A stretch of DNA of 32,929 bases from an uncultured Deinococcales bacterium (GTDB taxonomy: Bacteria > Deinococcota > Deinococci > Deinococcales > Trueperaceae): contig CALHRJ010000137.1 in assembly GCA_938038395.1 (NCBI GenBank), positions 1 to 32,929 on the forward strand. Reading direction: 5' to 3'. This document shows positions 2,195 to 29,818 of this stretch, in pieces (position 1 is the first letter of the stretch; each line of letters begins with the position of its first letter). The translations under genes and the position numbers were made by a program. The notes under the pieces are model-generated. The model saw only the letters and a list, made by a program, of their open reading frames with translations, did no database searches and was not told where the DNA came from.

Positions 2195-3922
2195 TTAGTT
2201 ACCTGTGATTACAGGAGATCCTGCAATTCCGTGGTAAATACCGTTGACTAAGCCAAGGTTTAACAATGATGTTTGCAAATCCTGATCGCTTCTTACGTTA
2301 GCGAAAAAGTTTGGATTAGGTGCTGGCTGTGATAGCACTACATAGAAAACTTCAATAATTGGTGAGTTCATTGTAAAGCTATAATTGGTACCTAAAGTAT
2401 TTACATCGTTTGGTATATGGACTTGATCGTACAGCTTTACACTAACAGTTTGAGGTATTTGCTGATTTGGTAGAAGTGCTTGAATGCTGCCATCCGCAGA
2501 TCTTGAAAAGATGTAGGCATGACCTGCATAAGGGCTACGAATTAAGAAGCTAAATTGCTGGAATGGACGCAATGTCGCAATTGCACTGTTGCCTGTATAG
2601 GCTGCTGAATGGGTGAAGTAAATCGCTGAGCAAAAATCACGAATTGTTTGTTGAGTGTTGCCAGCGCTTTGTTGACAGTTCATTGGTGCTGGTGGAATTG
2701 GTAATGCAAAATCGCTTGCATCGACGCAATTTTCACCACTTACACCAGGTGGGCAACTGATTGGTGCAACTGGTGCTGGTGGAAGCGCAATTGTAAGAGG
2801 GGCTGGGGTTACAGGGTTTGTAACAGTTGGGTTACATAGTGGATCGTAAATACCTACGATGCATGGACGTGACACAGTTTGTGTTGGAATAGTTACGTTT
2901 ACACAGTTAGGAATATAGTACCCAGCTTGGCACGGTTGTGGCGTTACTGTTGATACTGTTGGTGTTGAGACAGTACCTAGACATTCAGGACGATTTTGGT
3001 TGGCTGGTGTTTGACAGTAGGTTGGCGCACCTGTGGTTGGCGCAGTCACTGTTGTGTTTTGTTGGCAAGCAACTAGGAACTGGTTCGCAGGGTTTGTACA
3101 ATAAGCAGGCACCTGGTTGTTTGGGTTAAGAATAGTCACTTGATTAACTTGTGTTTGACACTCTGCTCTAAATTGATATTCTGGATAGCTACAATAGTTT
3201 GGTACTGTTTGTGTCACAGGGGTTGTAGCTATAGGAGCATATAAACCTTGGCATTCAGTGCGGGTACTGTACTCGACTTGATAGCAGTAACTTGGGTAGC
3301 CAGTTGTTGTAGGTTGTTGATAGCTAGTTGTGGTTGGTTGATAGCTCTGGCCCTGACACTCAGAACGACTTTGGTTGGCTGGTGTTTGACAGTAAGCAGG
3401 AACTTGACCAGTATTAACTTGACCAGTGTTAACTTGAGTTGTTTGTTGAGTTGTTTGTTGAGTAGGTTGCTGATAGACCTGTGTTGTTCCAACCTGACAT
3501 TCTGGTCTATTCGCATTTGCTGGGTTTGAACAGTAATCTGGTAAGCCATTATTTGTATAGGTGGTTGTATAATTAGTGTTTGTGTAAGTGTTGTTGACAG
3601 CGCCTTGACACTCAGGACGACTTTGATTCGCTGGTGTTTGGCAGTAGTCTGGTGCAGCACTTGTTGTGGCTTGGTTACTAACTTGATTAGTATTGTAATT
3701 GTAGGTTTGGGTATAGCCTACAGTTGTGGCAGTTGGTGTTGTATAGACATTGTTTAGTCCATTATTTATGGTGCCGTTATAAGCCGAGGTTCCACCTGTG
3801 ACAAAAATATTGCTCGAGCCCTGAGCTGTGCCCAAGCTAAACAACATAAACAGCAACGATAGGGTCATGATTGCTACCGCATAAGCAGTAGCTTTCCTGT
3901 TAGTTTGATAAAACGATTTCAT
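2195..3922 (-). CDS. secreted Cys-repeat protein with DUF4384-like C-terminus (paralogue 1)
   Basis: No named gene is recognised. The 575-residue protein has a signal peptide (about residues 14-33, likely cut after GTAQ) and a mature start, NIFVTGG, close to that of its neighbour (NIFVAGA). It then has seven units of the form Y-C-x10-C, most ending RPECQ or similar, separated by Thr/Gln/Asn-rich linkers with short internal duplications (QVNTG twice, QQTT twice). Three C-x8-C units come next. The C-terminal ~160 residues look like DUF4384 (SFLIRSPYAG, SADGSIQALLP, IIEVFYVVLS). The ATG at 3922 has AGGAG 6 to 7 bases upstream. It follows nuoH by 40 bases on the same strand, so transcription from the nuo promoter is likely. 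The Cys count is even within each repeat, which suits disulfides; metal binding is an alternative. Confidence 0.85.
   Translation of the reverse strand: MKSFYQTNRKATAYAVAIMTLSLLFMLFSLGTAQGSSNIFVTGGTSAYNGTINNGLNNVYTTPTATTVGYTQTYNYNTNQVSNQATTSAAPDYCQTPANQSRPECQGAVNNTYTNTNYTTTYTNNGLPDYCSNPANANRPECQVGTTQVYQQPTQQTTQQTTQVNTGQVNTGQVPAYCQTPANQSRSECQGQSYQPTTTSYQQPTTTGYPSYCYQVEYSTRTECQGLYAPIATTPVTQTVPNYCSYPEYQFRAECQTQVNQVTILNPNNQVPAYCTNPANQFLVACQQNTTVTAPTTGAPTYCQTPANQNRPECLGTVSTPTVSTVTPQPCQAGYYIPNCVNVTIPTQTVSRPCIVGIYDPLCNPTVTNPVTPAPLTIALPPAPVAPISCPPGVSGENCVDASDFALPIPPAPMNCQQSAGNTQQTIRDFCSAIYFTHSAAYTGNSAIATLRPFQQFSFLIRSPYAGHAYIFSRSADGSIQALLPNQQIPQTVSVKLYDQVHIPNDVNTLGTNYSFTMNSPIIEVFYVVLSQPAPNPNFFANVRSDQDLQTSLLNLGLVNGIYHGIAGSPVITGN
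2981..3660 (-). repeat. degenerate ~50-base coding repeats (C-x10-C units)
   Basis: Near-identical DNA blocks encoding the PAYCQTPANQSRPEC-type unit recur at about 2981, 3358, 3480 and 3603, with more diverged ones at about 3080, 3150 and 3250. The same block recurs in the paralogue at about 1785 and 1890. Most copies read on the plus strand as a CA-TTCAGGACGACTTTGG core followed by a GCTGGTGTTTG core. Spacers differ in length and sequence, so this is a coding repeat that expands by slippage or recombination, not a CRISPR array. Confidence 0.8.
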
Positions 3923-3962
3923 CTTCTTCTCCTAAGAAAATTATTATTTTTTGAAATTGCGA

Positions 3963-5264
3963 TTACTTAAAAACTAAACGTAAAATAATTGCAATGAACA
4001 AACCAAAAATTGATAGTGGAATTAAAACTTTCCAACATAATTCCATAAGTTGGTCATCCCTAAAGCGTGGCAATGTTGCACGAATCCACATGATGAGCCA
4101 AGAAACAATTGCAGTCTTAGCTAAGAACCAAAACAGACCGTAGCTATTGGCAAGTAAACGACTGAATTGATGTAGCACACTACCTTCAGCACCAATGGAG
4201 CCAATGATTGCACCAAAGTCTACTAAGAAAGCCAACGGTTGCTGATAGCCTCCAAAAAACAGCACAACAGCAATGGCAGGTAGTAAGAACAGTTCTGCGA
4301 ATTCAGCTACAAAGAAAAATCCAAAACGCATACCTGAGTACTCCGTATGGAATCCTGCAATAAGTTCGGATTCTGCTTCGGGTAAATCAAATGGCGTCAT
4401 TTTAATTTCTGCCAGACTTGCAATAAGGTAAACAACTGCAGAAATAAAGAGTGGGATAAAACACCACCAGTTGCGCTGCGCTTCAACGATATCAGCGAGG
4501 TTGAGACTACCTACCCATATACCAACCGATAAAAGTGATATGGCCAAGGGAATTTCATAGCTCACGAGCTGCGCAGTAGCACGGAGTCCACCTAAGAGGC
4601 TAAATTTATTATTAACACTCCAGCCAGCTACAAGAACACCATAGGCACCTAAAGTGCCAGCAGCAATGATAAACAGTAGACCTACATTAATGTCAGCCAA
4701 AACCCAGTCAGGTCCAAAGGGAATAACGGCCATGAGCAAAAATGCAGAAACAAAAACCATGACAGGTGCAAGCGTAAAGACCCAAGGGTCAGCATCGCCC
4801 GGCATAAAGTCCTCTTTAGATACTAGTTTGAATGCATCAGCAATTGTTTGAAATGCACCACCTGGACCATTGTGAACAGGACCGTAACGGTTCTGTACTA
4901 CTGCTAGATATTTTCTAAGCAACAAAATTAATATAAGTGCAGCAACAGCTACGGCTAAAAAGGCAAAAACTGAAGCGGTTATTGCATAGATTATGCTTCC
5001 AGCTACAGTAAACTGACCATGAACTGCAAGGGGAGAGCCTTCCATACGAAAGAGCCATGGCACTGTAGAAAACATTGCAGCAATCATGCTGAACATCAAT
5101 AAAAAGAGCGCACCATAGCTAAGGATTTTTGCAAGCAAGTTTGGCTTGTTAGGATTATAGCCGCCTAGTTTTGGTCTAAAGTGACGGTCTTTTGGCAATG
5201 CCCGATTTAGAAATGGCCTATCGGAAGGTGCTTTAATAGAGTTCTTAGATGAGATGTTACTCAT
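3963..5264 (-). CDS. nuoH: NADH-quinone oxidoreductase subunit H
   Basis: NuoH is the membrane subunit that forms the quinone chamber between the peripheral and membrane arms. Family signatures are clear: the PFDLPEAESELIAGFHTEYSGMRF loop (read in part), VAEFAELFLLPAI, and IRATLPRFRDDQLMELCWK near the C-terminus, with about eight hydrophobic helices. At 433 residues it is longer than the usual 320-350, through an N-terminal extension of about 50 residues and one extra hydrophobic segment at about 47-70. Its start overlaps the nuoD stop by one base (TAATG), which indicates translational coupling. The 40-base gap downstream leads into the Cys-repeat gene instead of nuoI. Confidence 0.97.
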   Translation of the reverse strand: MSNISSKNSIKAPSDRPFLNRALPKDRHFRPKLGGYNPNKPNLLAKILSYGALFLLMFSMIAAMFSTVPWLFRMEGSPLAVHGQFTVAGSIIYAITASVFAFLAVAVAALILILLLRKYLAVVQNRYGPVHNGPGGAFQTIADAFKLVSKEDFMPGDADPWVFTLAPVMVFVSAFLLMAVIPFGPDWVLADINVGLLFIIAAGTLGAYGVLVAGWSVNNKFSLLGGLRATAQLVSYEIPLAISLLSVGIWVGSLNLADIVEAQRNWWCFIPLFISAVVYLIASLAEIKMTPFDLPEAESELIAGFHTEYSGMRFGFFFVAEFAELFLLPAIAVVLFFGGYQQPLAFLVDFGAIIGSIGAEGSVLHQFSRLLANSYGLFWFLAKTAIVSWLIMWIRATLPRFRDDQLMELCWKVLIPLSIFGLFIAIILRLVFK

Positions 5265-7601: not shown

Positions 7602-7692
7602 GTTAAAACCTCATTTTTCTTTTGACCTATCATAAGTTGAAAATTGATGACACGGTACTGAGTACAAATATGTTTGTAAGGTGGCAAGTTTT

Positions 7693-8094
7693 TTAATACA
7701 CCCATTTAAGGACTCCTTTGCTCCATGCGTAGGCCAAACCGTCCAAAAGTAAAATCATAAAAATAAATACTGAAATAACCCCGTACCACCCAAGTGCATC
7801 GAATGCGACTGCCCAAGGGAAGAAAAAGGCAACTTCCACATCAAAAATAACGAACATAATCGCAAATAGATAGTAGTTGACATTGAACTTTACATCTGTA
7901 CTACCAATCGTGGGTTCACCACACTCGTAGACTGCTAGTTTTTGAGGATTAAGATTGTGGGGTGCAATGAGTCTGGAAATGCCTAGCGTAGCTAGTACGA
8001 TGACAACACCCATCAAGGCAAAAATGCCTATCATGAGGGCTCCGTTGAGCTCGAGCCCGTAGTTCATAAAATTGTTATAGCCGACAGCATCCAT
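7693..8094 (-). CDS. nuoA: NADH-quinone oxidoreductase subunit A
   Basis: This is a small membrane subunit near the quinone site. The 133 residues hold three hydrophobic helices (about 18-40, 72-95 and 100-122) with the family motif KLAVYECGEPTIGS and FNVNYYLFAIMFVIFDVE. The ATG at 8094 is preceded by AGGAG at good spacing. It is the first gene of the minus-strand nuo series, and a promoter-like pair lies about 125 bases upstream. The 91 bases between it and nuoB contain no gene. Confidence 0.97.
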   Translation of the reverse strand: MDAVGYNNFMNYGLELNGALMIGIFALMGVVIVLATLGISRLIAPHNLNPQKLAVYECGEPTIGSTDVKFNVNYYLFAIMFVIFDVEVAFFFPWAVAFDALGWYGVISVFIFMILLLDGLAYAWSKGVLKWVY

Positions 8095-9662: not shown

Positions 9663-11672
9663 ATGGCTGAACATCGTCTATTGTCTCGACAGCTCAAGCG
9701 CTTAAAGTTAAGTGAGGATAATTCTCCTGATAGAGAACAATGGCAGCGTTTCTTAAGCCATGTTCAAAATTCTTATGAGGACAATGATACAGATCGCGAG
9801 TTACTTGAGCGTTCTTTAGCTATCTCTTCTGAAGAAATGCAAGCCCTATATAATGATTTACAAAAAAGTACAGCATCAAAGTTAGGTCAAGAACGAAATA
9901 AGTTGCAAACCATCATTACCTCTTTGAGTGAAGGTCTTTGTATTTTTAGTGCGGATGGTAAACTTGACTTTGCAAATAATGAAGCTAAAAAACTATTTGG
10001 CTGGCAGCTAGATAAAAACCGAACGTTAGAGCAACTATTTTCATCAACAAATGCTTCTGAAAAAGTGCTAACTGCATTTAAGCAGGGGCAAGATGTCCAA
10101 TCTGAAGAAGATTCTTTTTGTGACGACCAAGGTCGGGTTTTTCTTGTGGCTTATACTTTTACCCCTCTGGACACTGGTGAAGCCATCCTTGTATTTAGAG
10201 ATATTACTGAGCGTAAACAGGCTGAAATTTCTCTAAAAGAAAGCCATGATGAACTCGAGCAACGTGTTCAAGTACGGACTGCCGAGCTCGAGCAAGTGAA
10301 TCAACAACTGCAACACGAAGTCTTCCATGATGGGTTGACAGGTATTGCAAATAGGGCTTTGTTTAGCCATCGTTTAGAACAAGCAATTCAGTGGCAAAGT
10401 CGATACAAAAGAGAAAATTTTGCAGTTTTGTTTCTCGACTTGGACCGCTTTAAGGTTGTTAATGATAGTTTGGGTCATTTAGCTGGCGATAAGCTTCTTT
10501 GCATCGTTGCTGAGCGCCTTCAAGATGAAGTGCGAGCGGTTGACACAGTAGCAAGATTAGGTGGCGACGAATTTACGATTCTGCTCGAGCGCTTAACATC
10601 AAATGAAGAAGCACTTGAAATTGCAAGGCGCGTATTAAAAAGTCTGTTAAAACCTATTGTTCTGAAAGATCAAGAAGTGCTTGTTTCTTCTAGTATAGGG
10701 ATTGTATTTAGTGAAAATAAGTATGTTTCAGCTGAGGATATTTTACGAGATGCTGATATTGCAATGTACCGTGCCAAAACAAAAGGCAAAGCCCAATATC
10801 AAGTATTTGATGAAAGTATGCGTGAAAAGGCGGTGGCACAGTTAGAAGTTGAAACCGAATTGCGTAAAGCGCTTGAACAAGAAGCTTTTAGTGTTAATTA
10901 TCAACCAATTGTTTCAGTTACGACGCAGGAACTCGTAGGTTTTGAGGCTTTATGTCGTTGGGAACATCCTACTAAAGGCTTTATTGCTCCAGATGAATTT
11001 ATTCCCATAGCCGAAGAAGCAAACCTAATTATTCAGCTAGATATGCAGGTTCTCAAACAAGCCTGTAATTTTATGTCTACATTGAATTTAAATATTGAGA
11101 GTTCAAGTACCGATTTGAAGTCTGAGATTAGAAATCATCCCTTGAGTTTAAGTGTCAATTTTTCAAGTCAACATTTTCTTCAAGCCAATTTTGCAGAACA
11201 ACTTTTGAAGGTACTTAACAGTATCGATTTTGATCCAAAGCAGCTTAATATTGAAATTACTGAAGGTATCTTACTTAATTCGGATGGTATGGTTGCTAAG
11301 AATTTAGAGACCTTACGTGCAATCGGTATTAAAATTCAGATTGATGATTTTGGCACAGGTTACTCTTCGTTAAGTTATTTGCATCGCTTTCCGATTGATA
11401 CTTTAAAAATAGACCGTTCCTTTATTACGCATTTGCTTGAAAATAATGAAAGCTTAGAGTTGGTAAAGACCATCATATTAATGTCGCAGAATCTGGGCTT
11501 AAATGTGATTGCTGAAGGTGTTGAAGAACTTGACCAGTTCCTAAAACTTCAGTCGCTTGAGTGTGCTTTTGTTCAGGGGTATTATTTCGCAAAACCCATG
11601 CCAGCAGAGGATATAGAAGCTTATATCAGCGAACATGCTATAGCTCAGGAGTTGTCTGAAACCATAGCCTAA
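9663..11672 (+). CDS. PAS-GGDEF-EAL cyclic-di-GMP enzyme
   Basis: This is a predicted cytoplasmic dual-domain c-di-GMP synthase/phosphodiesterase of 669 residues. Residues 1-75 form the helical N-terminus often seen in FIST-associated signalling proteins (LSRQLKRLKLSE... LLERSLAISSEEM). A PAS domain follows (about 80-185), then a coiled coil (190-215), GGDEF (about 220-375) and EAL (about 395-655). The GGDEF motif is intact at 300-304, with a product-inhibition I-site RAVD at 291-294. The EAL domain keeps E428-A429-L430, ITEG, DDFGTGYSS (D561, D562), the K of LKIDRSF and the E of IAEGVEE, so both activities look possible. It starts one base after the FIST gene, which implies that FIST tunes its output. 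Confidence 0.94.
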   Translation: MAEHRLLSRQLKRLKLSEDNSPDREQWQRFLSHVQNSYEDNDTDRELLERSLAISSEEMQALYNDLQKSTASKLGQERNKLQTIITSLSEGLCIFSADGKLDFANNEAKKLFGWQLDKNRTLEQLFSSTNASEKVLTAFKQGQDVQSEEDSFCDDQGRVFLVAYTFTPLDTGEAILVFRDITERKQAEISLKESHDELEQRVQVRTAELEQVNQQLQHEVFHDGLTGIANRALFSHRLEQAIQWQSRYKRENFAVLFLDLDRFKVVNDSLGHLAGDKLLCIVAERLQDEVRAVDTVARLGGDEFTILLERLTSNEEALEIARRVLKSLLKPIVLKDQEVLVSSSIGIVFSENKYVSAEDILRDADIAMYRAKTKGKAQYQVFDESMREKAVAQLEVETELRKALEQEAFSVNYQPIVSVTTQELVGFEALCRWEHPTKGFIAPDEFIPIAEEANLIIQLDMQVLKQACNFMSTLNLNIESSSTDLKSEIRNHPLSLSVNFSSQHFLQANFAEQLLKVLNSIDFDPKQLNIEITEGILLNSDGMVAKNLETLRAIGIKIQIDDFGTGYSSLSYLHRFPIDTLKIDRSFITHLLENNESLELVKTIILMSQNLGLNVIAEGVEELDQFLKLQSLECAFVQGYYFAKPMPAEDIEAYISEHAIAQELSETIA

Positions 11673-12615: not shown

Positions 12616-13791
12616 ATGAACGAGATAATGACTAAAGATGAAATTCTATTGGCTCAAAGCTTAATACAAGCATTTAGCCCGTCAGGTGCGGAATCGCCTG
12701 CTGCGAAGGTATTGTGTGATGCTTTTGCGGCTTTAGGCTTTGATGAAAGTTACATTGATGATGCTGGTAACGCAGTTGGCATATTTAAGCGTGGTGACGG
12801 TCCGCACATCATGCTTAATGGGCACATAGATACCGTTCCACTAGGCGATGAATCAATTTGGCCCTACCACCCTTTGTCAGGTGAAATTGTAGGTGATCGA
12901 ATGTGGGGGAGAGGTGCTTGCGATATGAAGTCAGCACTGGCTTGCATGGCTTTCGCTGCTAAAGATGCTGTTGAACAAGGGTTTCAAGGAACGCTTTCTG
13001 TGACAGGTGTAACGCTTGAAGAAGTGGGTGGTTTGGGTGCGTGGCATTTAGCGAAAGAGCAAACTGCAGATGTGATTGTTTTGGGTGAACCTAGTAAGTT
13101 AAAGCTTATGCTTGGACACCGGGGTCGGGTTGAGGTACATGTTAAGTCAAAAGGTGCAATTGCACACGCTGCGAAAAGTGAGTTGGGCAAGAATGCACTC
13201 TATCCAGTGGCGAAGTTATTGGCGCAGCTCGAGCACCTAGAACTCCCAAGCGGTGGCATCCTTAAGGGGTCAACCCTTACACCAAGCTTCTTAGAATCTC
13301 ACCCTAAAAGTACGAATGTTGTACCAGGCGAAGCACATTTGGTCATTGATTACCGCAATATTCCAGGTGATGATGATGAGCATATTCTTGAGCGTTTACG
13401 TGCTTTAGCGCCTGAACTTGAATTTGAAATTCCGAATGAGGCACTAACATCTGAGAATGGCAAGGTTGTGTTGGAGGGGCGCTCGAGCCGTCAACCTTTC
13501 CTTACACCAGGCGAAAATGCCTTGGTCAATTTAGCAAGGCAGACGATTAAAGAAGGTCTTTCTGGCTTTGGACATGCTTTTGAAGAAGACTGTTGGTGGT
13601 TTGCTACAGATGCTCCTTGGTTAGCCGAAATGCCAAATACTAAAGGGGGTAAAGCTTTGGTTGTTGGATTTGGTCCTGGCGAAGAAGAATTGGCACATAC
13701 GACCAATGAAAGTGTACCTTTAGCCCATTTGCCGATAGCTCGAAAAGTATATTGTGATTTGGCAATGGCATTTGCTAAAACTATGTCTTGA
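12616..13791 (+). CDS. M20 family zinc hydrolase (ArgE/DapE/LysK/YgeY-like)
   Basis: This is a cytoplasmic metallohydrolase that cleaves an amide bond of an acylated amino acid or short peptide; which substrate cannot be read from sequence. With the ATG at 12616 it is 391 residues. Metal and catalytic residues are in place: H70 and D72 in GHIDTVP, D103 in GRGACDMK, the pair E135-E136 in TLEEVGG, and H361 in LAHTTNE. The dimerisation lid lies between, with LGEPSKLKLMLGHRGRVEV at its start. The frame extends further upstream to a TTG at 12544, but those residues look non-coding. ATG 12628 is an equally possible start. Candidates are a LysK-like desacylase of lysine/arginine synthesis or the YgeY subgroup. 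Divergent from phoU. Confidence 0.88.
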   Translation: MNEIMTKDEILLAQSLIQAFSPSGAESPAAKVLCDAFAALGFDESYIDDAGNAVGIFKRGDGPHIMLNGHIDTVPLGDESIWPYHPLSGEIVGDRMWGRGACDMKSALACMAFAAKDAVEQGFQGTLSVTGVTLEEVGGLGAWHLAKEQTADVIVLGEPSKLKLMLGHRGRVEVHVKSKGAIAHAAKSELGKNALYPVAKLLAQLEHLELPSGGILKGSTLTPSFLESHPKSTNVVPGEAHLVIDYRNIPGDDDEHILERLRALAPELEFEIPNEALTSENGKVVLEGRSSRQPFLTPGENALVNLARQTIKEGLSGFGHAFEEDCWWFATDAPWLAEMPNTKGGKALVVGFGPGEEELAHTTNESVPLAHLPIARKVYCDLAMAFAKTMS

Positions 13792-16589: not shown

Positions 16590-17822
16590 ATGTCCAATTT
16601 GACACAGAACACCTTATTAACACCAGAAGAACGCAAAAGGCTAAAGGCAAGACAGCGCACTGGCGGCATTCTGAAATTCTTAACGGTATTGCCAATCGTT
16701 TTGGCAATATTACTTATTTTATTTGTGTTTTTGAGCAATATAAACAATGCTTTTGTTTGGCAGACCATTAAACGTACGGGTAGTAGTAGTGGCATGCTAT
16801 TTGATAAAAAAGAGGTAACGTCGCAGGAGAAAGGGTTTGAGCTCGAGCTCGAAGCCAGAGGCGACGACCCAGCTGAAACCTTGAGTGACGAAGAAAATCG
16901 AAGAAAATTTCTGTTGCGTAGCCGAATTGACCACTTGCCAGAAGCCAATGGCGAAAAAGATAAAGTTATTGTTTGGACAAGTCGAGATAAAATTGTAGAT
17001 CAGCGTCCCTATCTTGAAGGTCGAAGGCTAAAATCTGAATTGGCCGCAGAAGCTGCTGAAGAAGGCTATGATTTTGCGCTCAATCCCTTACTAGATAAAG
17101 CATTCTTAACTCGAAATGGTTCTTCACGGCCACACTTGGCGGGGTTTAGAACTGCTATTGTCGGCACGCTTTGGGTAATTATGCTGGTGATTTTACTGTC
17201 TACAGTTGTTGGTGTCGGAACGGCAGTGTATTTGGAAGAATATGCACCCAAAAATTGGTTTAGTGCAGTTTTAGAAGTGAACTTGCGAAATCTTGCAGGT
17301 GTACCGAGTATTGTTTACGGGCTGCTCGGTGCCTATACCTTTGTACGAAGTTGGCAGATGGGAAGCAGTATTTTGGCTGCTGCACTCACCTTAAGCTTGT
17401 TGATTTTGCCAGTGGTAGTCATTGCTTCACGCGAAGCAATTCGTGCTGTGCCCAGTTCACTGCGTCAAGCTAGCTATGGTTTAGGTGCAACCAAGTTGCA
17501 AACCGTTAACAATGTGGTGTTACCAAATGCAGTTACTGGCATTGTAACGGGTGTTATCTTGGCGATAGCGCGGGCTATTGGGGAAACTGCTCCGTTGGTC
17601 ATGATTGGTGGCGCAGGTTTTATATCAACTATTCCTGGTGGTTGGGATGTACTTTTCGATAGATTCTCGGTTATGCCGCTACAAATTTATTCTTACTTTA
17701 TTGTTCCCGATGGCAATTTCCGTGAAGTGGCATCTGCTGGTATTTTGATACTACTTAGCCTGCTCATAGCGATCTATTTTGTTGCATTTTTAATCCGCTT
17801 GCGTTTTGAGCGCAAATGGTAA
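16590..17822 (+). CDS. pstA: phosphate ABC transporter permease PstA with large insert
   Basis: The second Pst permease. It is 410 residues against the usual 280-300. Residues 1-27 are charged, 28-50 form the first helix, and about 55-182 form a hydrophilic, charged insert (including a run of Glu-rich residues at 83-103) before the permease core begins at AGFRTAIVGTLW. The core has the coupling loop REAIRAVPSSLRQASYGLG and ARAIGETAPLVMIGGAGF. By topology the insert should lie in the periplasm. PstA proteins with a long loop after helix 1 are known in some proteobacteria, so this is a variant of an existing theme. It starts one base after pstC, so the two are translationally coupled. Confidence 0.95.
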   Translation: MSNLTQNTLLTPEERKRLKARQRTGGILKFLTVLPIVLAILLILFVFLSNINNAFVWQTIKRTGSSSGMLFDKKEVTSQEKGFELELEARGDDPAETLSDEENRRKFLLRSRIDHLPEANGEKDKVIVWTSRDKIVDQRPYLEGRRLKSELAAEAAEEGYDFALNPLLDKAFLTRNGSSRPHLAGFRTAIVGTLWVIMLVILLSTVVGVGTAVYLEEYAPKNWFSAVLEVNLRNLAGVPSIVYGLLGAYTFVRSWQMGSSILAAALTLSLLILPVVVIASREAIRAVPSSLRQASYGLGATKLQTVNNVVLPNAVTGIVTGVILAIARAIGETAPLVMIGGAGFISTIPGGWDVLFDRFSVMPLQIYSYFIVPDGNFREVASAGILILLSLLIAIYFVAFLIRLRFERKW

Positions 17823-20317: not shown

Positions 20318-20325
20318 GCTCGAGC
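20318..20325. repeat. intergenic copy of the GCTCGAGC palindrome
   Basis: The only one of the 17 copies of the octamer that lies outside coding sequence, 40 bases after the DUF3810 stop in the context GGCTCGAGCC. Its presence between genes shows that the motif is not a by-product of a codon pair. Confidence 0.9.
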
Positions 20326-20565: not shown

Positions 20566-21507
20566 ATGAAGAGAGCAACTATTGTTATCATCGATGACGA
20601 ACCCAACATGTTGGAGCTTGTTACCGATGCACTGCAGAGCGAATACAAAATTAAAAGCTATCAGCAACCACGAGAAGCGATTTCTGATTTCGATAAAGGT
20701 TTAGTTCCAGATTTGATTATCTGTGATGTAATGATGCCTAATATTACTGGCTTTGATTTACATCAATTGGTCCGTGGTATGCCTGATTTACTTCATATAC
20801 CTTTTTTATACCTAACTGCTTTGGACGACGAAGAGCATTTTCGTAAGGGTATGAGTATAGGTGCAGATGACTATATTGGTAAGCCATTTTCTGCACAGGA
20901 ACTGCGTCAATCTGTAGCAGTAAGGCTCGAGCGCAGCCAATTTCTCCAAGAGAATGATGTTATTCCTTCTAGCCAGCGTATTTTAAAGATTCATAGTATG
21001 GGTGGTTTTGAGGCGAGCATGGCAGGACGCCGTGTTCAGTGGGGCATCAAGAAGTCTGCTGCTGCCTTTTTATTTTTGCTACATAGCAACAAAGATATTC
21101 CAATTGAAATTGTTAAAAAAGAACTTTGGTGGGAGCCAGTAGTTGACAATACGGTCCATGTATTGAATTTGCGTCTACGGAAAATCATCAAAGATTTTGC
21201 CGAACTCAAAGTTCGCAAAGGCAATATGTCGTTAACTGTGGATTGTCCAATTGAATGGGATATTGTTGAATTTGAAACCTTAGCAAAAAAAGCAATTGAA
21301 TCGCAAAGTTATAAAGATTCTGAACTTGCAATTAAAGGCTATGGTGGAGAATTTTTGCCAAATTTCGATGTTCCTTGGACAGAACGCCACCGTTTACACT
21401 TTGACGAATTGTACATGCAGCTTTTAGAGTTAAGTGTTGAAACGGCACCAAATGACACAAGTCGCTCTATGGTTGAAGGGCGACTTGATAGGTACTTGAA
21501 CGGCTAG
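20566..21507 (+). CDS. response regulator with SARP-like winged helix and BTAD-like output
   Basis: A 313-residue two-component response regulator. The receiver domain (about 5-118) has D10, D11, phospho-acceptor D54 (ICDVMMP), T84 and K106 (GKPF). A winged-helix DNA-binding region follows (about 140-225: KKSAAAFLFLLHS, KELWWEPVVDNTVHVLNLRLRK), then a helical segment of BTAD type (about 232-300: FETLAKKAIES, YGGEFLPNFDVPWTERHRLHF). This is the receiver-SARP architecture, not the OmpR/PhoB one. No sensor kinase is adjacent. The position after pstSCAB and the TGACAAT repeats in its own promoter make it a candidate phosphate-response regulator. The gene ends in a strong terminator. Confidence 0.88.
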   Translation: MKRATIVIIDDEPNMLELVTDALQSEYKIKSYQQPREAISDFDKGLVPDLIICDVMMPNITGFDLHQLVRGMPDLLHIPFLYLTALDDEEHFRKGMSIGADDYIGKPFSAQELRQSVAVRLERSQFLQENDVIPSSQRILKIHSMGGFEASMAGRRVQWGIKKSAAAFLFLLHSNKDIPIEIVKKELWWEPVVDNTVHVLNLRLRKIIKDFAELKVRKGNMSLTVDCPIEWDIVEFETLAKKAIESQSYKDSELAIKGYGGEFLPNFDVPWTERHRLHFDELYMQLLELSVETAPNDTSRSMVEGRLDRYLNG

Positions 21508-21587: not shown

Positions 21588-22178
21588 TTAACGGAGATAG
21601 AAATAGCTTTCTAGAACGATATTGGCTTCTGCTTTAACCTGATTAGCGCTTGTTGCACCATTTGGTTGCTCAACTTGAAAAACTGAACCATTTTGGTCAA
21701 CGTAGTAGATAGTGTTTGTATTTGTAATAGGTTGTGCTGAAAAAGCAGCTTGTATACGATGCAAACCTACAGGAGGTGTCAATGAGAGTCCAGACACTGA
21801 ATAGCTTTGACCTGCTCTAACAGGAATATTTGTATACGGGGTTGCTGTTCCTTCTCCAATAATGTAACTTCTGCCGTCTGGGTCGATAACGGTTAAGGTC
21901 ATGTATCCAGATTGTGGACTTCGGACCTCAAGCTGAATAGATTCTCCTACTAAGTAGCTCGAGCCTGTACCTCTAGTTGGTACAAAGAAGCTGTTACCGT
22001 AGTTTGTGCTATAGGCTTGAGAGCCTGTTGGTGTGGTGTAACTACTAACACTGTACTGATTGGGGCTTACTAGGTAAGTACAACCACTTAAGCTGATGCT
22101 TATGAATAAAGTTAAAATTGAGTAAACTATAGCCTTGCTAGGCTTTATTAAGGTTGTTTTGCTTCTTACTGTATGCAT
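21588..22178 (-). CDS. DUF4384-like lipoprotein
   Basis: A 196-residue envelope lipoprotein. The signal peptide ends in the lipobox LSGC (Cys about 33), so the mature protein should be lipid-anchored. After a Ser/Tyr/Thr-rich linker, the domain from about 90 onward has the DUF4384 pattern: YLVGESIQLEVRSPQSGY, then MTLTVIDPDGRSY, then IPVRAGQSYSVSG. It is the third DUF4384-like protein in this window, but it lacks the Cys repeats of the two in the nuo operon. It stands alone, convergent with the response regulator and divergent from smpB. A minus-strand TATACT (22246-22241) lies about 65 bases upstream as a possible -10. Function unknown; surface-layer or envelope assembly is a guess. Confidence 0.8.
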   Translation of the reverse strand: MHTVRSKTTLIKPSKAIVYSILTLFISISLSGCTYLVSPNQYSVSSYTTPTGSQAYSTNYGNSFFVPTRGTGSSYLVGESIQLEVRSPQSGYMTLTVIDPDGRSYIIGEGTATPYTNIPVRAGQSYSVSGLSLTPPVGLHRIQAAFSAQPITNTNTIYYVDQNGSVFQVEQPNGATSANQVKAEANIVLESYFYLR

Positions 22179-22245: not shown

Positions 22246-22465
22246 ATGGCAAAATAGCAAGCAGTATTTACATTGATGAAGAGAAAGGTGTTTGACTCAA
22301 GTAGTATCAGTTTAGCAAATGAATCTTAAACATTATGAAATCCTAAATGTGTCTTTGTGGTGCATGTTAAACTAGCAGCTACAGTCGAAGAAGACAACCT
22401 ACAGCTCATTAGCTTTTGGATTGTTTTAAATACCTAAATCGTGAATTTATTGGACAAACATTTAA

Positions 22466-22921
22466 ATGGCAAAAAAAGAAATAGCAAGAGACATTACAAT
22501 AAATAATCGCCGTGCCAGATACGACTATGAACTGCTCGAAATGTATGAAGCAGGTATGGTTTTGATGGGCAGTGAAGTCAAAAGCTTACGCACTGGTCAA
22601 GCGACATTGGGTGAAGCCTTTGCACGTTTGAAAAACGGTGAACTTTGGTTAGAAGGTATGCATATACCTATCTACAACGATGCTAGTTACAACAATCATG
22701 ACCCTTTACGCAGTCGTAAGTTGCTTTTGAATAAACGGGAACTAAGCCAATTGAAAAAAGATGTTGAACGTAAAGGATTGACCATTGTGCCAGTGAAGCT
22801 TTATTTTAAAGCTGGTTGGGTTAAGCTACAGATTGCAGTAGGTCGTGGTAAGAAAAACTACGATAAGCGCAAGGATGAAGCCAAACGAGATGCAAAACGT
22901 CAAATGGAGTCTTACCGCTAG
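22466..22921 (+). CDS. smpB: SsrA-binding protein SmpB
   Basis: SmpB binds tmRNA and delivers it to stalled ribosomes for trans-translation. The 151 residues match the family throughout: the N-terminal INNRRARYDYELLE, then EAGMVLMGSEVKSLRTGQA, the HDPLRSRKLLLNKREL segment, the core KLYFKAGWVKLQIAVGRGKK and the basic C-terminal tail YDKRKDEAKRDAKRQM. Its TAG stop overlaps a GTG that may start the next gene, so the two are coupled. No tmRNA gene is visible in this window. Confidence 0.98.
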   Translation: MAKKEIARDITINNRRARYDYELLEMYEAGMVLMGSEVKSLRTGQATLGEAFARLKNGELWLEGMHIPIYNDASYNNHDPLRSRKLLLNKRELSQLKKDVERKGLTIVPVKLYFKAGWVKLQIAVGRGKKNYDKRKDEAKRDAKRQMESYR

Positions 22922-24699
22922 TGGGTAGCTTTGCAAACTTTAGGCTCATGAAGTGTCGTAGCAGCAGTGTGCGACCTAATAGGGCATTTTCCTTGTGCAT
23001 ATTGGCCATTTGTTTGATCATTTGTTTAATCGTGTCTATAAGCTATGCTCAGCCCACTGTGTTGGTGAATGGGGTACAGCTCGAGCAGGTCGATAACACT
23101 ACTGTCAACGGAATTGATTATGTCGGAGCAAGTGAACTCAGTTCAGTTTTAGGCGCAACTTACAATACCTCTGCATCTGGTGACAGCTTGCAAATTGAAT
23201 TAGCTGGTCAGTTTATTTTGATGCCAGTATTTTCAACAGTGCAAGAAGCTCAAGAAGCCGAACAAGCTTTAGAGCTGAGGCGCTTTGGTACAAGTGAGTT
23301 TGTTGCAAGTACTAGTGCATTAAAGATAGGCGACGAAATACTAGTGCCGCTAAAACCCATAATTACAGCATTTGGCGGAAGTGTTGATTATGTTGCGGAA
23401 GTAAATTCGGTGATTGCAGTATTTGAACGAGCTGAACTTATCGTTTTAGCCTATCCCCAACCTAATAGTAGTGTCGAACGATTTGTTCTTAATTTGTCAG
23501 TGCCAGTGAATTATAAAATTCAGGATATGAAGAGTTTGTCTGTTTTGAATCTGCTTTTTTCACAGACAAACAGTCAATTGGGTTCCCAAAACTTAACAGG
23601 CCGTGGGTTTCAAAAAGCCATGTTTCGTAACTTTGCAGGTGATGTTGAATTTAGGCTTGAGTTGCGTGAAGGGTACAAGGCTGATATTTTTAGCAGCCCT
23701 CCAGATGGTGCCTATGCAAATTACAATGGTGTCAATGTAATTGTTGACGTCTTAGCAGAAACAGCATTTGAGCAGCGTTACGCCGTAGCCGAGGCAAACG
23801 AAGCAGCTTTAGAGGCTTCAAACAGTGTCGGTAGTATGTTGGTGAATACTATTGGTGGTCAAGTTGGCGCACCCCAAGCTATTGCTGAAACCGTTGTCCC
23901 TGATATTCCAATTGTGGAAATAGACCAGCTAGCTGGGCAGCAGGGACCTGTTACAACCACAGCAGTGTCAAGCATTGGTAGTACCCCACCTACAGTTGTA
24001 AGTTCTATTGGCTCAAATACTCCAACTTCTGCGCCAGCAACTGTAAATGTTGCCGATATAGGTGATCCAGTTACGATAGCGGCACGCTCGAGCCATATTG
24101 TGTTGGATCCTGCGCCCGTGAGTGGGGCAAATTTAGCAACCTCTGATACCAGTTTTGATTTTGTTGCGAGTGTTGCAGCTGGGCTTCAACGCTATGGACT
24201 TTCAAGTTCTATTACACGTATGAAAGGTGATTTAGGCCAAGCAGAAAGTCGTAGGAATGCAGGCGTTGGTGCAGCAGCTTTTATTTCAATTAATCAGGCT
24301 GATATTCCAGTAGGTACCTATAATTTGTATTACTTAGGTGAAGTTGACGATGAAGCTACCCTTGATTTAGCTGTTCGGCGCAATGCTGCAAATGCACTGC
24401 GAAGTGGTGCAGCAACTACCAATTCAATTGATCAAGAAGATGAAACCGCTGCACTCAGAAGGAAAGTACTGTTGAATTTGAGTAGTGGTCCAGATGAAGC
24501 TGCTACCTTTGCACAATCTATGCAACGAAACTTGTCCACAAAAGGCTATGCACTAAATAATATTCAAGCTTTACCATTATATATTTTAGGTGGTGCGGTA
24601 GGCCAAGGTATTGTGGTTGAATTTAGTCAGCAAGATATTGCAACACCAGCTTTACAAACTGCTTTACTAGAAGCAATTCTCCAACTTAACTTACAGTAA
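22921..24699 (+). CDS. catalytically degenerate N-acetylmuramoyl-L-alanine amidase homologue
   Basis: An exported envelope protein of 592 residues. A signal peptide or anchor (about 24-43, SISYA/QPT) is followed by a copper-amine-oxidase-N-like domain (about 46-175), an AMIN-like segment (about 175-275), a Thr/Ser/Pro linker (285-385) and a C-terminal region with the full outline of amidase_3. In active amidase_3 enzymes the first strand ends DPGHGG; here it is DPAPVSG (from D396), so the zinc His is gone. The second zinc His of S-I-H-A-N is Asn458 (FISINQAD). The late Glu of VVEF is kept (E567). Cell-wall binding without cleavage is therefore likely. The GTG at 22921 overlaps the smpB stop; ATG 22948 is an alternative giving a more typical signal peptide. 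Confidence 0.82.
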   Translation: MGSFANFRLMKCRSSSVRPNRAFSLCILAICLIICLIVSISYAQPTVLVNGVQLEQVDNTTVNGIDYVGASELSSVLGATYNTSASGDSLQIELAGQFILMPVFSTVQEAQEAEQALELRRFGTSEFVASTSALKIGDEILVPLKPIITAFGGSVDYVAEVNSVIAVFERAELIVLAYPQPNSSVERFVLNLSVPVNYKIQDMKSLSVLNLLFSQTNSQLGSQNLTGRGFQKAMFRNFAGDVEFRLELREGYKADIFSSPPDGAYANYNGVNVIVDVLAETAFEQRYAVAEANEAALEASNSVGSMLVNTIGGQVGAPQAIAETVVPDIPIVEIDQLAGQQGPVTTTAVSSIGSTPPTVVSSIGSNTPTSAPATVNVADIGDPVTIAARSSHIVLDPAPVSGANLATSDTSFDFVASVAAGLQRYGLSSSITRMKGDLGQAESRRNAGVGAAAFISINQADIPVGTYNLYYLGEVDDEATLDLAVRRNAANALRSGAATTNSIDQEDETAALRRKVLLNLSSGPDEAATFAQSMQRNLSTKGYALNNIQALPLYILGGAVGQGIVVEFSQQDIATPALQTALLEAILQLNLQ

Positions 24700-24733
24700 G
24701 TTAAGGCTTAGATTAGATTATGGATATATTCTT

Positions 24734-25354: not shown

Positions 25355-25403
25355 TTGCGTTTTGGGCATTCTGTGTCGCTGTAGATGATAATTTATAGGA
25401 CCT

Positions 25404-26693
25404 ATGGATAGAGAATTTAGAGTTCTACAAACCAAGGCTGACTGTTTAGGAAAATCCAGTTATTTTGAAATGTTTGAAATGAGTTTTGCAATCAGCTTTG
25501 TAAAGAGATTATTTGTGGTACTGCTGTTCTTATACATTGGTCAATATGGTGTGTCGCAAGACCGAATTGATAGCCTTTCACCCTTTATACAGCTTGCACC
25601 TGGCATTGCCGTACAAGTTGGTATAATTGGCACTGATCCAGACCATGATGCCGAACCCGTGAGTGTTTTTAAGCTCAATCGACAAGGTATAAATACAACC
25701 TTTGGTAAAAGTAAAGATGGCGTTCTATTCGACTTTAGAGTCACTAGACCCATTATGAATGGACTTGCCTATAGTCTTGCTACACGAAATCATGCTTGGG
25801 CAAGCCAGGGATTTTTTACTGATAATAAAGTCAGTGTTAACGGGAATTATGGAGTCTTAGATTTCGAAACTACAAAGTTTCGTGTTCGTCCAGAAGTTTT
25901 CTATGCATATTCAAGTCAACGGTTATCTGTTCCTAGTGTTGTGGATTCTAGACTAGGTGCTTCGTTCACTACTGACTTAAATCAAAACTTACAGGACTAT
26001 GGCAGTTTTCAGCTTAGGAATGTTGCGGCTTTAACATATTATCCTTCAATCGGCGAATGGCAGTATGCAATTAGACTAATCCCTAGTTGGACACTAACTC
26101 TATTTGAAAACCGATTTGTTATGGGGTACGACTTTCAGCTTGCCAATGCAGCTTCACCCTTTGATGGGCATGTTGACCGACAAGGTTATATCAATCGAAT
26201 TAATGCTGTTTGGCACTATGAACCAAGTTCATTTTTATCAGGTACTTTGAAAAATAGTTTGGGTGTGTCTTTTGATTGGCGAAAAGATGTTGAAAAGAAT
26301 CAGTCACCTTTGCGCAGTGCTTTTTGGGTTTTAGATACGAGGCAAGTGTTTGATACGCTTGTGTGGGAGTTGAGGCTCGAGCTGCAAGCTGCCGCACTCT
26401 TAGCTGATTTATTGTTACCAGTTGATGACTCAGATTTACGAGCATCTTTTAGTCTAAATACTGACCTGTATCATCATGATTGGCACTATCACTTCAAAGG
26501 TGAATATAAATTTGTTCATCCAGACAAAGAAAATGATATTGACATTTTTGAATTTGGTTTAGGTCCAGTTGTTGAATTAGAGGGTCAAAACTTTCGACCC
26601 TATGTTGCTCTAGATTTAGCTGAAGCACTATTTAATGACGGTGCCATTGACAAAATTAAGCTTGTTGCTATTGGGTTTGAGGTATTGCAATAA
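25404..26693 (+). CDS. predicted outer-membrane beta-barrel protein
   Basis: No named family is recognised. The 429-residue frame has a signal peptide about 25-50 residues in (KRLFVVLLFLYIGQYGVSQ), so the true start may be the ATG at 25470 or 25479, although AGGA sits just before the ATG at 25404. The mature part has many alternating hydrophobic strands with aromatic girdle residues and polar turns (WQYAIRLIPSWTLTL, WHYHFKGEYKFVH, FRPYVALDLAEALF), as in a 10-16-strand barrel. There are no Cys in the mature part. It follows the GerMN-like gene by 49 bases and may share its transcript. A transport or structural role cannot be told from sequence. Confidence 0.65.
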   Translation: MDREFRVLQTKADCLGKSSYFEMFEMSFAISFVKRLFVVLLFLYIGQYGVSQDRIDSLSPFIQLAPGIAVQVGIIGTDPDHDAEPVSVFKLNRQGINTTFGKSKDGVLFDFRVTRPIMNGLAYSLATRNHAWASQGFFTDNKVSVNGNYGVLDFETTKFRVRPEVFYAYSSQRLSVPSVVDSRLGASFTTDLNQNLQDYGSFQLRNVAALTYYPSIGEWQYAIRLIPSWTLTLFENRFVMGYDFQLANAASPFDGHVDRQGYINRINAVWHYEPSSFLSGTLKNSLGVSFDWRKDVEKNQSPLRSAFWVLDTRQVFDTLVWELRLELQAAALLADLLLPVDDSDLRASFSLNTDLYHHDWHYHFKGEYKFVHPDKENDIDIFEFGLGPVVELEGQNFRPYVALDLAEALFNDGAIDKIKLVAIGFEVLQ

Positions 26694-26788
26694 GTGTTCT
26701 ATATCTTTTTTGCCTAAAACACACAAACAGATTTCGAAGTTCTTAATCAATTCACCTCATTCTCAAAACCATCAAAATCCTTTCATGC

Positions 26789-26817
26789 TTGACAGTTACA
26801 CTTAAATTACTTATTGA
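26789..26817 (+). promoter_or_regulatory. candidate promoter for the protease-beta-helix gene
   Basis: A consensus TTGACA (26789-26794) is followed after 17 bases by TATTGA (26812-26817), a poor -10. The start codon is about 112 bases downstream. Modest support only. Confidence 0.3.
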
Positions 26818-26929
26818 ATACTGCTCGTTTTAGATGCCGAAATGTGTTTGTAATAAACGTGAATTCTAAAATTTAATGAGCAAAACCTAGATTAGGTCAA
26901 CTGTATATTATGGTCGGGATTATTATCGA

Positions 26930-29818
26930 ATGCTAAATATTATTTTAAAACTCTTTAGAACTATTAGGCTATGTCAATCTGACGTTTATAATGTGAGTCT
27001 TGTCGTGACATACGATAGGCAACCTAGTGTCATAAAGTTTGCCTCTGTAATTTTGGTGATACTTGTTAGCGGACTGAATGTACAAGCGCAAAACTTTTAT
27101 GGTTTTCCAAGCTACGAAGATAGCACCCAAAGCTTTCAGCCTTTTGCTTATTTTGGCAGTGAGCCTCTTTGGGAAGACTTTCGCAATTTTGAAGGTCATC
27201 AAGTTTATGGTCAGATTGGTTCTGCGATTGGGCAACTTGAAACAATTCTTGAAGTTGATGGTAAACGCCTTTCAGGCGCATATGGCTGTACTGCAACCTT
27301 AATTGCAGAAGATATTATTATTACGAATTACCATTGTGTGCCAAATGGCGAAAGCCGAATAGAATTGGTTAACGCATTTTTACGCATGGACTTTTTGACA
27401 GCTGGTGAAACAGGTGATTTGTACCCTGTAGATATTCGTGTTTTGGAAAGTAATGAAAGTCTAGATTACGCGATCTTACGTGTAGAGAATGCACCTGGCA
27501 GAACTTATGGTTTTGTGCCTTTGCGCTACCGAAGTGCAGTTGAGAGTGAAGAGCTATTTATGATTCATCACTCAAAAGCAAAGCCGAAGCAGATTACAAG
27601 GCGAAACTGTACTCTATTAAGAGCGGATCAGCTCGAGCAACTTCCTATAGAAATGGTTGGGGAATTTAGACAATTCAATAGTGAAACCGATCGTCCACAC
27701 AGATGCGATTCAGAAGAAGGCAGCTCAGGTGCACTTGTTTTTGCCTATAGTGATGGTGCAATAGTGGGTTTACATTTTGCTGGAACCAGCAGTCAACTAC
27801 CTGTGCAACAGAGAGCTAATATCTTTATAGATATGACAACACTGGTAGAACAAAGCACACAGCTTCGCAGCTTAGCGCAGCGAATAACAAATAGTGCTGA
27901 CAGGCCTCAAGGTAATTCTCAAACGCCAAACGGCTCAGGGTTAAGTAGTCAGATATCTTTAATTGAAGATGCACCTTCAGCGGTTGCTAGCACAAGACCC
28001 AGACCAGAAGTTACGGCAGAAAGTGGGTTTCTAAATTTACTTACAGAACCACTTGGCGCAGACGTCTATATTAATCAAGAATTTATAGGTCAAACACCGA
28101 TTGAACAATACCCACTTACAAAAGGACGTTACGACTTACGTATTTCTCGAAGTGGTTATGATGTTATTGATGGTTACTTCCAAGTAATTGCAGGACAATC
28201 TACAGATGGCGATATTTCTTTAGTAGCTCAAGAAGGTACTGTTGTTGCTGATGAGACTTCTTCAACTAATCAAGTAGATGAATCACAAGTAATTACTCCT
28301 TTCCCAACAACAGCACCAGAAACTCAATCGAATGATGTGGAGAACCCTCTAGATATTTCAGACGAATCAACTCAACATAGTTTAGGTAATGGGGATGTTC
28401 GAGAAAACTTTGGTAGTATCACAGTCTATAGTGAGCCAATTGGTGCAGAAGTATTTGTCAATGAAAAGCTTATAGGTATGACACCCTTAATTGCGTATGC
28501 ACTTGATTTAGGTGTCTATGACATAACTTTAAATAAAGAGGGTTATGAGATCTATAGGGATAGAGCGTCTATAGCGCGTAGTAGAAATACGGATGTGACA
28601 GTTCGATTGACTGAAGTTGAGGCTTTGCCAGACCCGAATTTCAATCAACCCGCAAGTATCACTGATTCAGAAGAACAAAATCCTGAAGTTCAAGAACAGA
28701 CTGATGCATCTAGCACTGTTGCTATAAACGCGAATCAAGCAGTAACTAGGGAAGAGGAAGTTGTAGCTGATAGCGATACTACGCCGCTAACCTTTGCTAC
28801 ACCAACTGAAGATCAGGCAACGGGTGGACTACCCAAAAATGAACAAGCTGCCATTACATCTGTTGAGGAATTTATTCGTCAAGCTCGAGCAGGGGGAGTG
28901 ATTCGTTTAGGTGAAGGTCGCTTCGACATAAACGATGCTTTGAGCCTTAACAATGATCTAGAAATAATTGGTTCTGGAGCAGATAAAACGATTATCAGCT
29001 CTTCTGCTGAAGGGTATGTTTTTAGAACGAGTAATATGAAGTTTAAGGCTAGCGGATTATCTATAGTGCATACGAGTGGTCGTTGGGGCAATGTTTTAGT
29101 TGGACACGATAGTCAAGTTGATATCCAACAGGTCAACGTTTCTGGGGCTATATGGGATAGTACTATTAATCAAGGTGGTATGGGGTTGTGGCTGACAGGC
29201 TCGAGCGCTGGTATCATTAAACAAAGTACTTTTGAGAATAATCAATTGCATGGCATTTACTTAAGCGATGCGTCAGAACCTGTTTTAGAAAGTAATCTAA
29301 TTCGTAACAATGGTCAGAATGGTGTGCTCTATTTGGGCTCGAGCTCAGGTCTTGCTACAGCTAATGTTCTTGAATCTAACGGTCTACATGGAATCAGTGT
29401 GGGCGGCCAGGCTAGACCAAGCATAGAAAACAATACACTCCGTAATAATGGCGAAACAGGTATCACCTATTTTGAAAATGCACGGGGTATTGCTTTAGCC
29501 AATCTCAGTGAAACTAATGGAACCTATGGTATTTCAGTTGTTGGTAGTTCAGAAGCGCGAATCGAACAAAATACAATTCGCAGTAATACAATAACTGGTC
29601 TTCTTTATGCAGGACAGAGTCGTAGCCTTGCAAAAGGTAATTTGATTTCTGCGAATACTATTAATGGTATCACTATAAATGAAGGTGCACAGCTAGAATT
29701 GGTAGATAACCGAATTGATGGAAATTTTTGGTATGGTGTATATTTTGATGGTAGCGCTCAAACTAGCTTAGAAAACAATACAATTGAGAATAATAGGGCT
29801 GGTAGAAGCAATCGATAA
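26930..29818 (+). CDS. secreted trypsin-like protease / PEGA x2 / parallel beta-helix fusion
   Basis: A 962-residue exported protein. A hydrophobic segment at about 37-53 (ILVILVSGLNVQA/Q) is the signal, so the frame may start later than the ATG used. A trypsin-like serine protease domain follows (about 70-310), with catalytic H135 (ITNYHC), D179 (SLDYAIL) and S266 (EEGSSGAL); all three are present. Two PEGA domains come next (about 362-427 and 497-562; LLTEPLGADVYIN and VYSEPIGAEVFVN), then an acidic linker. The C-terminus (about 640-962) is a right-handed parallel beta-helix with repeated N-x-x-x-x-N-x-x-x-G-I/V units of about 23 residues. The beta-helix and PEGA modules probably bind glycan or surface polymer and position the protease. 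It is a stand-alone gene. Confidence 0.88.
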   Translation: MLNIILKLFRTIRLCQSDVYNVSLVVTYDRQPSVIKFASVILVILVSGLNVQAQNFYGFPSYEDSTQSFQPFAYFGSEPLWEDFRNFEGHQVYGQIGSAIGQLETILEVDGKRLSGAYGCTATLIAEDIIITNYHCVPNGESRIELVNAFLRMDFLTAGETGDLYPVDIRVLESNESLDYAILRVENAPGRTYGFVPLRYRSAVESEELFMIHHSKAKPKQITRRNCTLLRADQLEQLPIEMVGEFRQFNSETDRPHRCDSEEGSSGALVFAYSDGAIVGLHFAGTSSQLPVQQRANIFIDMTTLVEQSTQLRSLAQRITNSADRPQGNSQTPNGSGLSSQISLIEDAPSAVASTRPRPEVTAESGFLNLLTEPLGADVYINQEFIGQTPIEQYPLTKGRYDLRISRSGYDVIDGYFQVIAGQSTDGDISLVAQEGTVVADETSSTNQVDESQVITPFPTTAPETQSNDVENPLDISDESTQHSLGNGDVRENFGSITVYSEPIGAEVFVNEKLIGMTPLIAYALDLGVYDITLNKEGYEIYRDRASIARSRNTDVTVRLTEVEALPDPNFNQPASITDSEEQNPEVQEQTDASSTVAINANQAVTREEEVVADSDTTPLTFATPTEDQATGGLPKNEQAAITSVEEFIRQARAGGVIRLGEGRFDINDALSLNNDLEIIGSGADKTIISSSAEGYVFRTSNMKFKASGLSIVHTSGRWGNVLVGHDSQVDIQQVNVSGAIWDSTINQGGMGLWLTGSSAGIIKQSTFENNQLHGIYLSDASEPVLESNLIRNNGQNGVLYLGSSSGLATANVLESNGLHGISVGGQARPSIENNTLRNNGETGITYFENARGIALANLSETNGTYGISVVGSSEARIEQNTIRSNTITGLLYAGQSRSLAKGNLISANTINGITINEGAQLELVDNRIDGNFWYGVYFDGSAQTSLENNTIENNRAGRSNR

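Follow-up and report, generated by a model that had tools for sequence, protein, structure and literature searches.

An abundant palindromic octamer in a Trueperaceae genome and its CTCGAG core among related Deinococcota: a candidate HIP-type motif

The DNA analysed here, a 32,929-nucleotide stretch referred to throughout as the window, belongs to an uncultured Trueperaceae bacterium (phylum Deinococcota) and is dense in copies of one palindromic octamer, GCTCGAGC, raising the question of whether a motif comparable to the highly iterated palindrome HIP1 (GCGATCGC, accompanied by alternate HIPs in cyanobacteria; Elhai 2015, PMC4390886) has arisen in another lineage and of what maintains it there. 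HIP1 has gone without an explanation since its description in 1995, in part due to its study in a single phylum (within the searchable literature), and no earlier report of an over-representation of GCTCGAGC or CTCGAG in the Deinococcota was found in the open-licence literature.

Octamer abundance and placement

The genome from which the window derives (G000) is available as a fragmented assembly of 3,767,309 bases that is 68% complete, with a NuoD 77% identical to that of the Trueperaceae MAG BWSM_7 and 62–65% identical to those of Thermaceae MAGs. The window contains exactly 17 copies of GCTCGAGC, the first starting at 3812 and the last ending at 29344, whereas dinucleotide shuffles of the window average 0.22 copies and never exceed 2, which agrees with the original count of 17 copies against an expected ~0.2. 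A recount of the hexamer agrees as well, with 17 of the 18 CTCGAG sites in the window falling within the octamer and a single exception at 10254..10259. Rather than being limited to the window, an outcome that had been named as contrary to a HIP1-like motif, the excess extends across this genome of the Trueperaceae, with 1,724 copies (458/Mb) compared to 44 of the reversed control octamer (CGAGCTCG; octamer/control ratios below compare GCTCGAGC to CGAGCTCG), and a HIP1-like octamer in a different lineage, as had been proposed, is thus present genome-wide. GCTCGAGC accounts for 90–93% of the CTCGAG sites in G000 (1,724/1,923, or 90%, genome-wide).

Within a 191 kb sample of G000, no octamer is more frequent than GCTCGAGC, which has 93 sites compared to 20 for the next palindromic one and O/E values of 107, 75, 77, and 45 at Markov orders 0, 1, 2, and 3, respectively. 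At orders 5 and 6, which had been suggested for this comparison, the unmasked O/E values are only 1.8 and 1.0, because models of these orders already contain the motif, and this form was rejected as uninformative since it would hide an excess; with the motif masked, orders 2–5 expect 0.5–0.9 sites against the 93 observed. The octamer is a perfect palindrome and cannot be oriented. The base preceding it is a purine in 146 of 186 cases in the G000 sample, giving RGCTCGAGCY as a raw count.

Nine of the window copies are in phase 2, encoding Leu-Glu, and are located in a nuoA-like coding sequence (CDS) on the minus strand (8049..8056; Gly-Leu-Glu-Leu), a GGDEF/EAL-type CDS at 9663-11672 (10286..10293 and 10583..10590), an M20-peptidase-like CDS (13227..13234), a pstA-like CDS (16841..16848), a response-regulator CDS (20925..20932), the CDS at 22921-24699 (23079..23086), the CDS at 25404-26693 (26375..26382), and a trypsin/PEGA/beta-helix CDS (27631..27638). 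Six copies are in phase 1 and encode Ser-Ser, occurring in the minus-strand CDS at 2195-3922 (3812..3819; Gly-Ser-Ser), the M20-peptidase-like CDS (13481..13488), a minus-strand DUF4384 CDS (21957..21964), the CDS at 22921-24699 (24086..24093), and the trypsin/PEGA/beta-helix CDS (29199..29206 and 29337..29344), which also carries the only phase 0 copy (28883..28890; Ala-Arg-Ala). The remaining copy is intergenic (20318..20325, between 20278 and 20566). The CDS at 2195-3922 is adjacent to one at 510-2159, the product of which has no Pfam match, and the two seemingly paralogous, secreted-looking proteins have a high content of Pro/Thr/Gln and contain 'PDYC..PANQSRPECQ' repeats.

The G000 sample has 53, 16, and 15 sites in phases 2, 1, and 0, respectively, and among Ala-Arg-Ala tripeptides the share encoded by the octamer is 48% for G000 and 68% for the relative G011. 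Leu-Glu is encoded as CTCGAG in 13% of cases in G000, compared to 2.4% predicted from codon usage, and only 6% of Glu-Leu is encoded as GAGCTC, with Leu-Glu not significantly more common than Glu-Leu. The excess of GCTCGAGC acts on the DNA, independent of reading frame and protein, as had been claimed from the three phases and the intergenic copy in the window.

The 12 distinct single-mismatch classes of GCTCGAGC total 34 sites in the 191 kb sample, where 33 are expected, with every position near background. Near-misses with CTCGAA, originally read as possible decayed copies, do occur in the window (at positions corrected to 8981, 16848, and 22535), but their origin by decay is rejected, as near-misses are not in excess as a class. 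Near-misses at background level indicate either that the sites are strongly kept or that near-misses are quickly converted.

When conservation at orthologous sites was checked, as had been recommended, recurrence was above controls and the excess is partly maintained there. In codon-aligned genes, three of six G000 octamers are identical in G011 (GC-matched control octamers, 3.5%; p = 8e-4, like the other p values from the several motif, spacing, and conservation tests without multiple-test correction), in genes with proteins 47%, 72%, and 38% identical, and 4 of 13 octamers in G009 are kept in G011 (control, 6.2%; p = 0.007). The copy in the nuoA-like CDS of the window is kept at the orthologous place in both G011 (Trueperaceae) and G009. 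Since 22% of Leu-Glu in G011 carries the octamer, part of this recurrence is saturation; at Leu-Glu positions shared between G000 and G011, three of four have the octamer compared to that 22% (p about 0.03). Orthologous conservation beyond independent saturation is weak.

CTCGAG in related genomes

The comparison set consisted of 111 relatives under the same phylum label, all from one order and with no sign of Deinococcus among them. In most of the lineages sampled, no palindromic hexamer is as over-represented as CTCGAG, the exceptions being G016 and, narrowly, G021. The site is flanked by G...C in 93% of cases in G000 (background 8%), 80% in G011, and 77% in G009, with GCTCGAGC reaching 875/Mb in G011 and 870/Mb in G001. 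Amongst the Thermus-like genomes, C...G flanks are present at 89–98% of sites (background 27–33%), such that CTCGAG there is nearly always CCTCGAGG (39/45 on pTT27 of Thermus thermophilus HB8, L277, and 53/54), and family f5 (G042, G046, G050, and G054) and genus g24 of family f2 (G047 and G051) possess bare CTCGAG at 6–9 per kb. What the relatives have in common is thus the CTCGAG unit, with flanks that differ by lineage, and not GCTCGAGC itself; the octamer as the unit, as initially described, applies within the Trueperaceae but not across the relatives. The first 50 kb of Thermus phage P23-45 (L278) avoids the host motif, with 6 CTCGAG compared to 48 GAGCTC and no CCTCGAGG. An effect of XhoI in lowering CTCGAG in genus g23 does not follow from the counts, as the three XhoI carriers have less CTCGAG per Mb but GAGCTC falls too. 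No excess is seen in two 50 kb samples of Deinococcus plasmids, and so no claim is made for the phylum as a whole.

Each f5 genome has about 27,000 CTCGAG compared to 4–15 GAGCTC, with strong avoidance of nearly all remaining palindromic hexamers. In the f5 samples (L111, L112, L114, L116, and others), AGGCCT, CCGCGG, and GAGCTC have 0 occurrences, CTCGAG being excepted from the avoidance. Across f5 and g24, 69–87% of Leu-Glu is encoded as CTCGAG (codon usage predicts 6–15%) and 0 of 430 Glu-Leu as GAGCTC. The same proteins contain 973 Leu-Glu compared to 430 Glu-Leu (2.3x; p about 1e-48), and therefore the DNA pressure appears to extend to protein composition. Site conservation in the closest f5 pair (15/19 compared to 39%) was rejected as a sign of site-by-site selection, because it equals the local saturation, with 70–75% of f5 Leu-Glu being CTCGAG.

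Gaps between CTCGAG hexamers vary slightly less than expected at random in G011 (CV 0.86 compared to 0.98 ± 0.04) and G017 (0.70 compared to 0.99 ± 0.10), a weak signal (2–3 SD) that is suggestive of a process of limited reach; even spacing is not seen in f5, g24, or Thermus. Clustering at oriC, as in Nocardia, was not seen in the regions examined around the methyltransferase genes of the Meiothermus-like genomes.

Candidate methyltransferases

For METHYLTRANSFERASES, three enzyme groups were distinguished: (i) the PaeR7I type, (ii) an Eco57I-like type, and (iii) PF01555 enzymes with a TSPPYW motif. Cytosine-5 (PF00145) and PF01555 methyltransferases are both missing from G000, G011, G017, G016, and G021, and with five genomes possessing neither, these families were rejected as the enzyme common to the octamer-rich Trueperaceae.

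The search for a CTCGAG methyltransferase, also suggested at the outset, returned a candidate of group (i) in G000, a 380-aa N-terminal methyltransferase fragment (contig C149; PF07669 and PF02384) that is cut by the contig end, has an intact GNPPY (NPPY) motif, and is located on a 4 kb contig bearing four octamers. It is 39.9% identical over 361 aa (E 5e-90) to the annotated PaeR7IM methylase on pRSB105; its relatives are 46–61% identical over most of their length, with one at 71% over 354 aa. By this similarity, the enzyme is a member of the PaeR7I methyltransferase family. PaeR7I recognises CTCGAG and its modification is adenine methylation; CTCGAG in these genomes is probably the methylation target of a DNA-methylating enzyme. 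There is no match to the PF04555 endonuclease in the 68% complete G000 assembly, where the gene neighbour of the enzyme is off-contig, and the G000 methyltransferase is apparently an orphan. In G012, the gene immediately following a PaeR7I-type methyltransferase (L195:3788-5581) is an endonuclease of the XhoI/PaeR7I family interrupted by stops (L195:5569-6287), the intact and broken pair apparently representing an orphan in the making.

The Eco57I-like enzyme (alignment A1; PF02384 and PF22837) is present in 9 Trueperaceae and 14 Meiothermus-like genomes. Based on neighbouring gene names read from translated sequence, it adjoins dnaG or sits one to two genes away in G011 (L138:4474-6150), G001, G016, and G021, neighbours V-ATPase genes in G017, and is near dnaA-dnaN-eno-pyk in most of the Meiothermus-like loci examined; the dnaG/V-ATPase setting is missing at the genes of G009 and G012. 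No obvious endonuclease is located beside the gene in most of the Trueperaceae members examined, and the enzyme was not found in G000, the assembly of which misses the dnaG locus. Plasmid relatives (35–40% identity) gave no indication of its specificity, as the adjacent genes included no recognised endonuclease. The PF01555 enzyme with TSPPYW is located beside the XhoI endonuclease genes of G052, G069, and G073 and is conserved across most of the Thermus-like genomes; its predicted chemistry is m4C, while the candidate enzymes of the octamer-rich genomes are predicted to be of adenine type. In f5 and g24, the groups richest in CTCGAG, the search for the three families yielded no more than a weak relative of the PaeR7I type, in G050.

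Amongst the Trueperaceae, the median octamer/control ratio is 10.6 with (i) or (ii) and 0.89 without, an association with a genus-level p of 0.0035 (phylogeny not corrected for) and one clear exception, G008 (1,592 octamers compared to 41 controls, ratio 39, in a 35% GC sample). This 92% complete genome has only other Eco57I-type or fragmentary enzymes, with neither (i) nor (ii) found. Several enzyme-bearing genomes have little excess (ratios: G014, 1.3; G012, 1.4; G005, 2.1; G016, 2.4). In the Meiothermus-like genus g25 (18 genomes), the Eco57I-like enzyme is present in 14 genomes and the PaeR7I type in precisely the remaining 4, a complementarity with a chance of 1/3060 if the two were independent (phylogeny not corrected for), which suggests that the Eco57I-like enzyme may also target CTCGAG.

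Discussion

The interpretation preferred here, held with about even confidence, is that GCTCGAGC is a HIP-type motif that is linked to methylation, under active maintenance, and separate from HIP1. The octamer would have evolved as a highly iterated palindrome separately from that of the cyanobacteria, with its CTCGAG core the putative target of an orphan adenine-type methyltransferase, of the PaeR7I family in G000 and, in the majority of sister genera that show an excess, Eco57I-like and encoded next to dnaG. Methylated or hemimethylated sites would provide a spaced-out strand mark for a process, in repair or replication, that operates over a limited distance. A copy about every 1–2 kb would therefore be advantageous and be retained at any place compatible with the encoded protein, and the G...C flanks may reflect the preference of a lineage-specific reader or enzyme. 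We infer that the site is methylated, that both enzymes target CTCGAG, and that a reader exists. Evidence against this interpretation includes the strong excess in G008 with neither enzyme, the little excess in several enzyme-bearing genomes, the near-lack of the three enzyme families in f5 and g24, and the weakness of the spacing and orthologous-conservation signals. Mismatch repair is the leading candidate for the process using the mark, although this is speculative and rather doubtful, and since the candidate enzymes appear to be of adenine type, the model proposed for HIP1, mismatch repair at G-methyl-C (PMC4390886), is not directly transferable.

It is conceivable, if on balance unlikely, that the motif is instead a neutral by-product, with methylation-guided or otherwise biased repair converting near-matches to functionless sites, in effect the ratchet of Elhai (PMC4390886) without selection on the site. 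Conversion of this kind would account for the excess in every codon phase and explain the Leu-Glu shift in f5 and g24, where a DNA force seemingly overrides protein preference, and the background-level single-mismatch neighbours fit fast conversion. The mildly even spacing in G011 and G017 and the recurrence at orthologous sites between genera, however, favour selection on the sites, and the G-methyl-C version of the ratchet would not be predicted with enzymes that, judging from their motifs, methylate adenine.

A binding site for a nucleoid, segregation, or chromosome-organising protein, with methylation incidental, is an improbable explanation, though a palindrome dispersed genome-wide would fit a dimeric protein and the lineage-specific flanks (GCTCGAGC, CCTCGAGG) look like a shifting binding preference. 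Xu et al. reportedly proposed a chromosome-structure role for HIP1. Under such a role, it would be by coincidence that these relatives carry two or three families of CTCGAG methyltransferases that are unrelated to one another. A DNA uptake signal for natural transformation is highly improbable; the density of 0.5–1 per kb resembles that of uptake sequences and the related genus Thermus has naturally competent members (PMC3235269). The 6 per kb of f5 and the variation in form between close genera argue against such a signal. Further, to our knowledge, no uptake motif is palindromic or tied to a methyltransferase. A codon- or peptide-level effect, to which the encoding of Leu-Glu by most copies could point, is almost certainly wrong and is refuted by the use of all three phases, the intergenic copies, and the Leu-Glu and Glu-Leu comparisons to codon usage and to each other.

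Returning to a maintained, methylation-linked motif, its extension to a HIP system across several Deinococcota families (the Trueperaceae, the Thermaceae, and two more) has slightly less than an even chance of being correct. Unrelated CTCGAG methyltransferases would have been swapped while the dependence on the site was kept, the flanks (GCTCGAGC, CCTCGAGG, or bare CTCGAG) rewritten, and protein composition changed in some lineages. If true, HIP would have originated twice, the second time independently and in groups that include the genetically tractable Thermus. Such a case differs from the first in its core and its predicted methylation chemistry and is graded in intensity (about 0.3 to 9 sites per kb); its natural gains, losses, and enzyme replacements would make the accumulation of methyltransferase targets a comparative question. 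Named, tractable relatives (Thermus and Allomeiothermus) open the motif to direct study.

Comparison with known systems

Chi/KOPS-type polar motifs are non-palindromic and strand-biased, unlike the palindromic GCTCGAGC. The methyltransferase in G000 and its relatives share the PaeR7I methylase family of the PaeR7I/XhoI systems (40–61% identity, up to 71%), but no intact endonuclease gene was detected in G000 and the site is enriched, not avoided. The orphan CTCGAG methyltransferase of Nocardia (Blow 2016, PMC4752239) has the same core and a link to replication, whereas its sites cluster between dnaA and dna polIII and those described here are dispersed.

The closest resemblance is to HIP1, also a GC-rich palindromic octamer that is the top octamer of its genome, occurs in any reading phase, and changes to other versions in close relatives. 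The architecture is the same, a G, a palindromic methyltransferase-type hexamer, and a C, with a methyltransferase predicted for the inner hexamer, for which G000 has a truncated candidate. The density is taken to be of HIP type (about 500–2500 copies per Mb; Elhai 2015, PMC4390886), with G000 (458/Mb) slightly below this range and G011 (875/Mb) and G001 (870/Mb) within it. The sequence and the phylum differ (GCTCGAGC in the Deinococcota, not GCGATCGC in a cyanobacterium), as does the predicted chemistry, with CGATCG enzymes being m5C or m4C and the Trueperaceae candidates, from their motifs, adenine type. One-off variants, the enrichment of which is a typical but not a defining HIP feature (PMC4390886), occur frequently in cyanobacteria, with a bias towards positions 1 and 8, but are at background around GCTCGAGC. 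Finally, unlike HIP1, the CTCGAG core is common to several families, including bare-hexamer relatives at 6–9 per kb.
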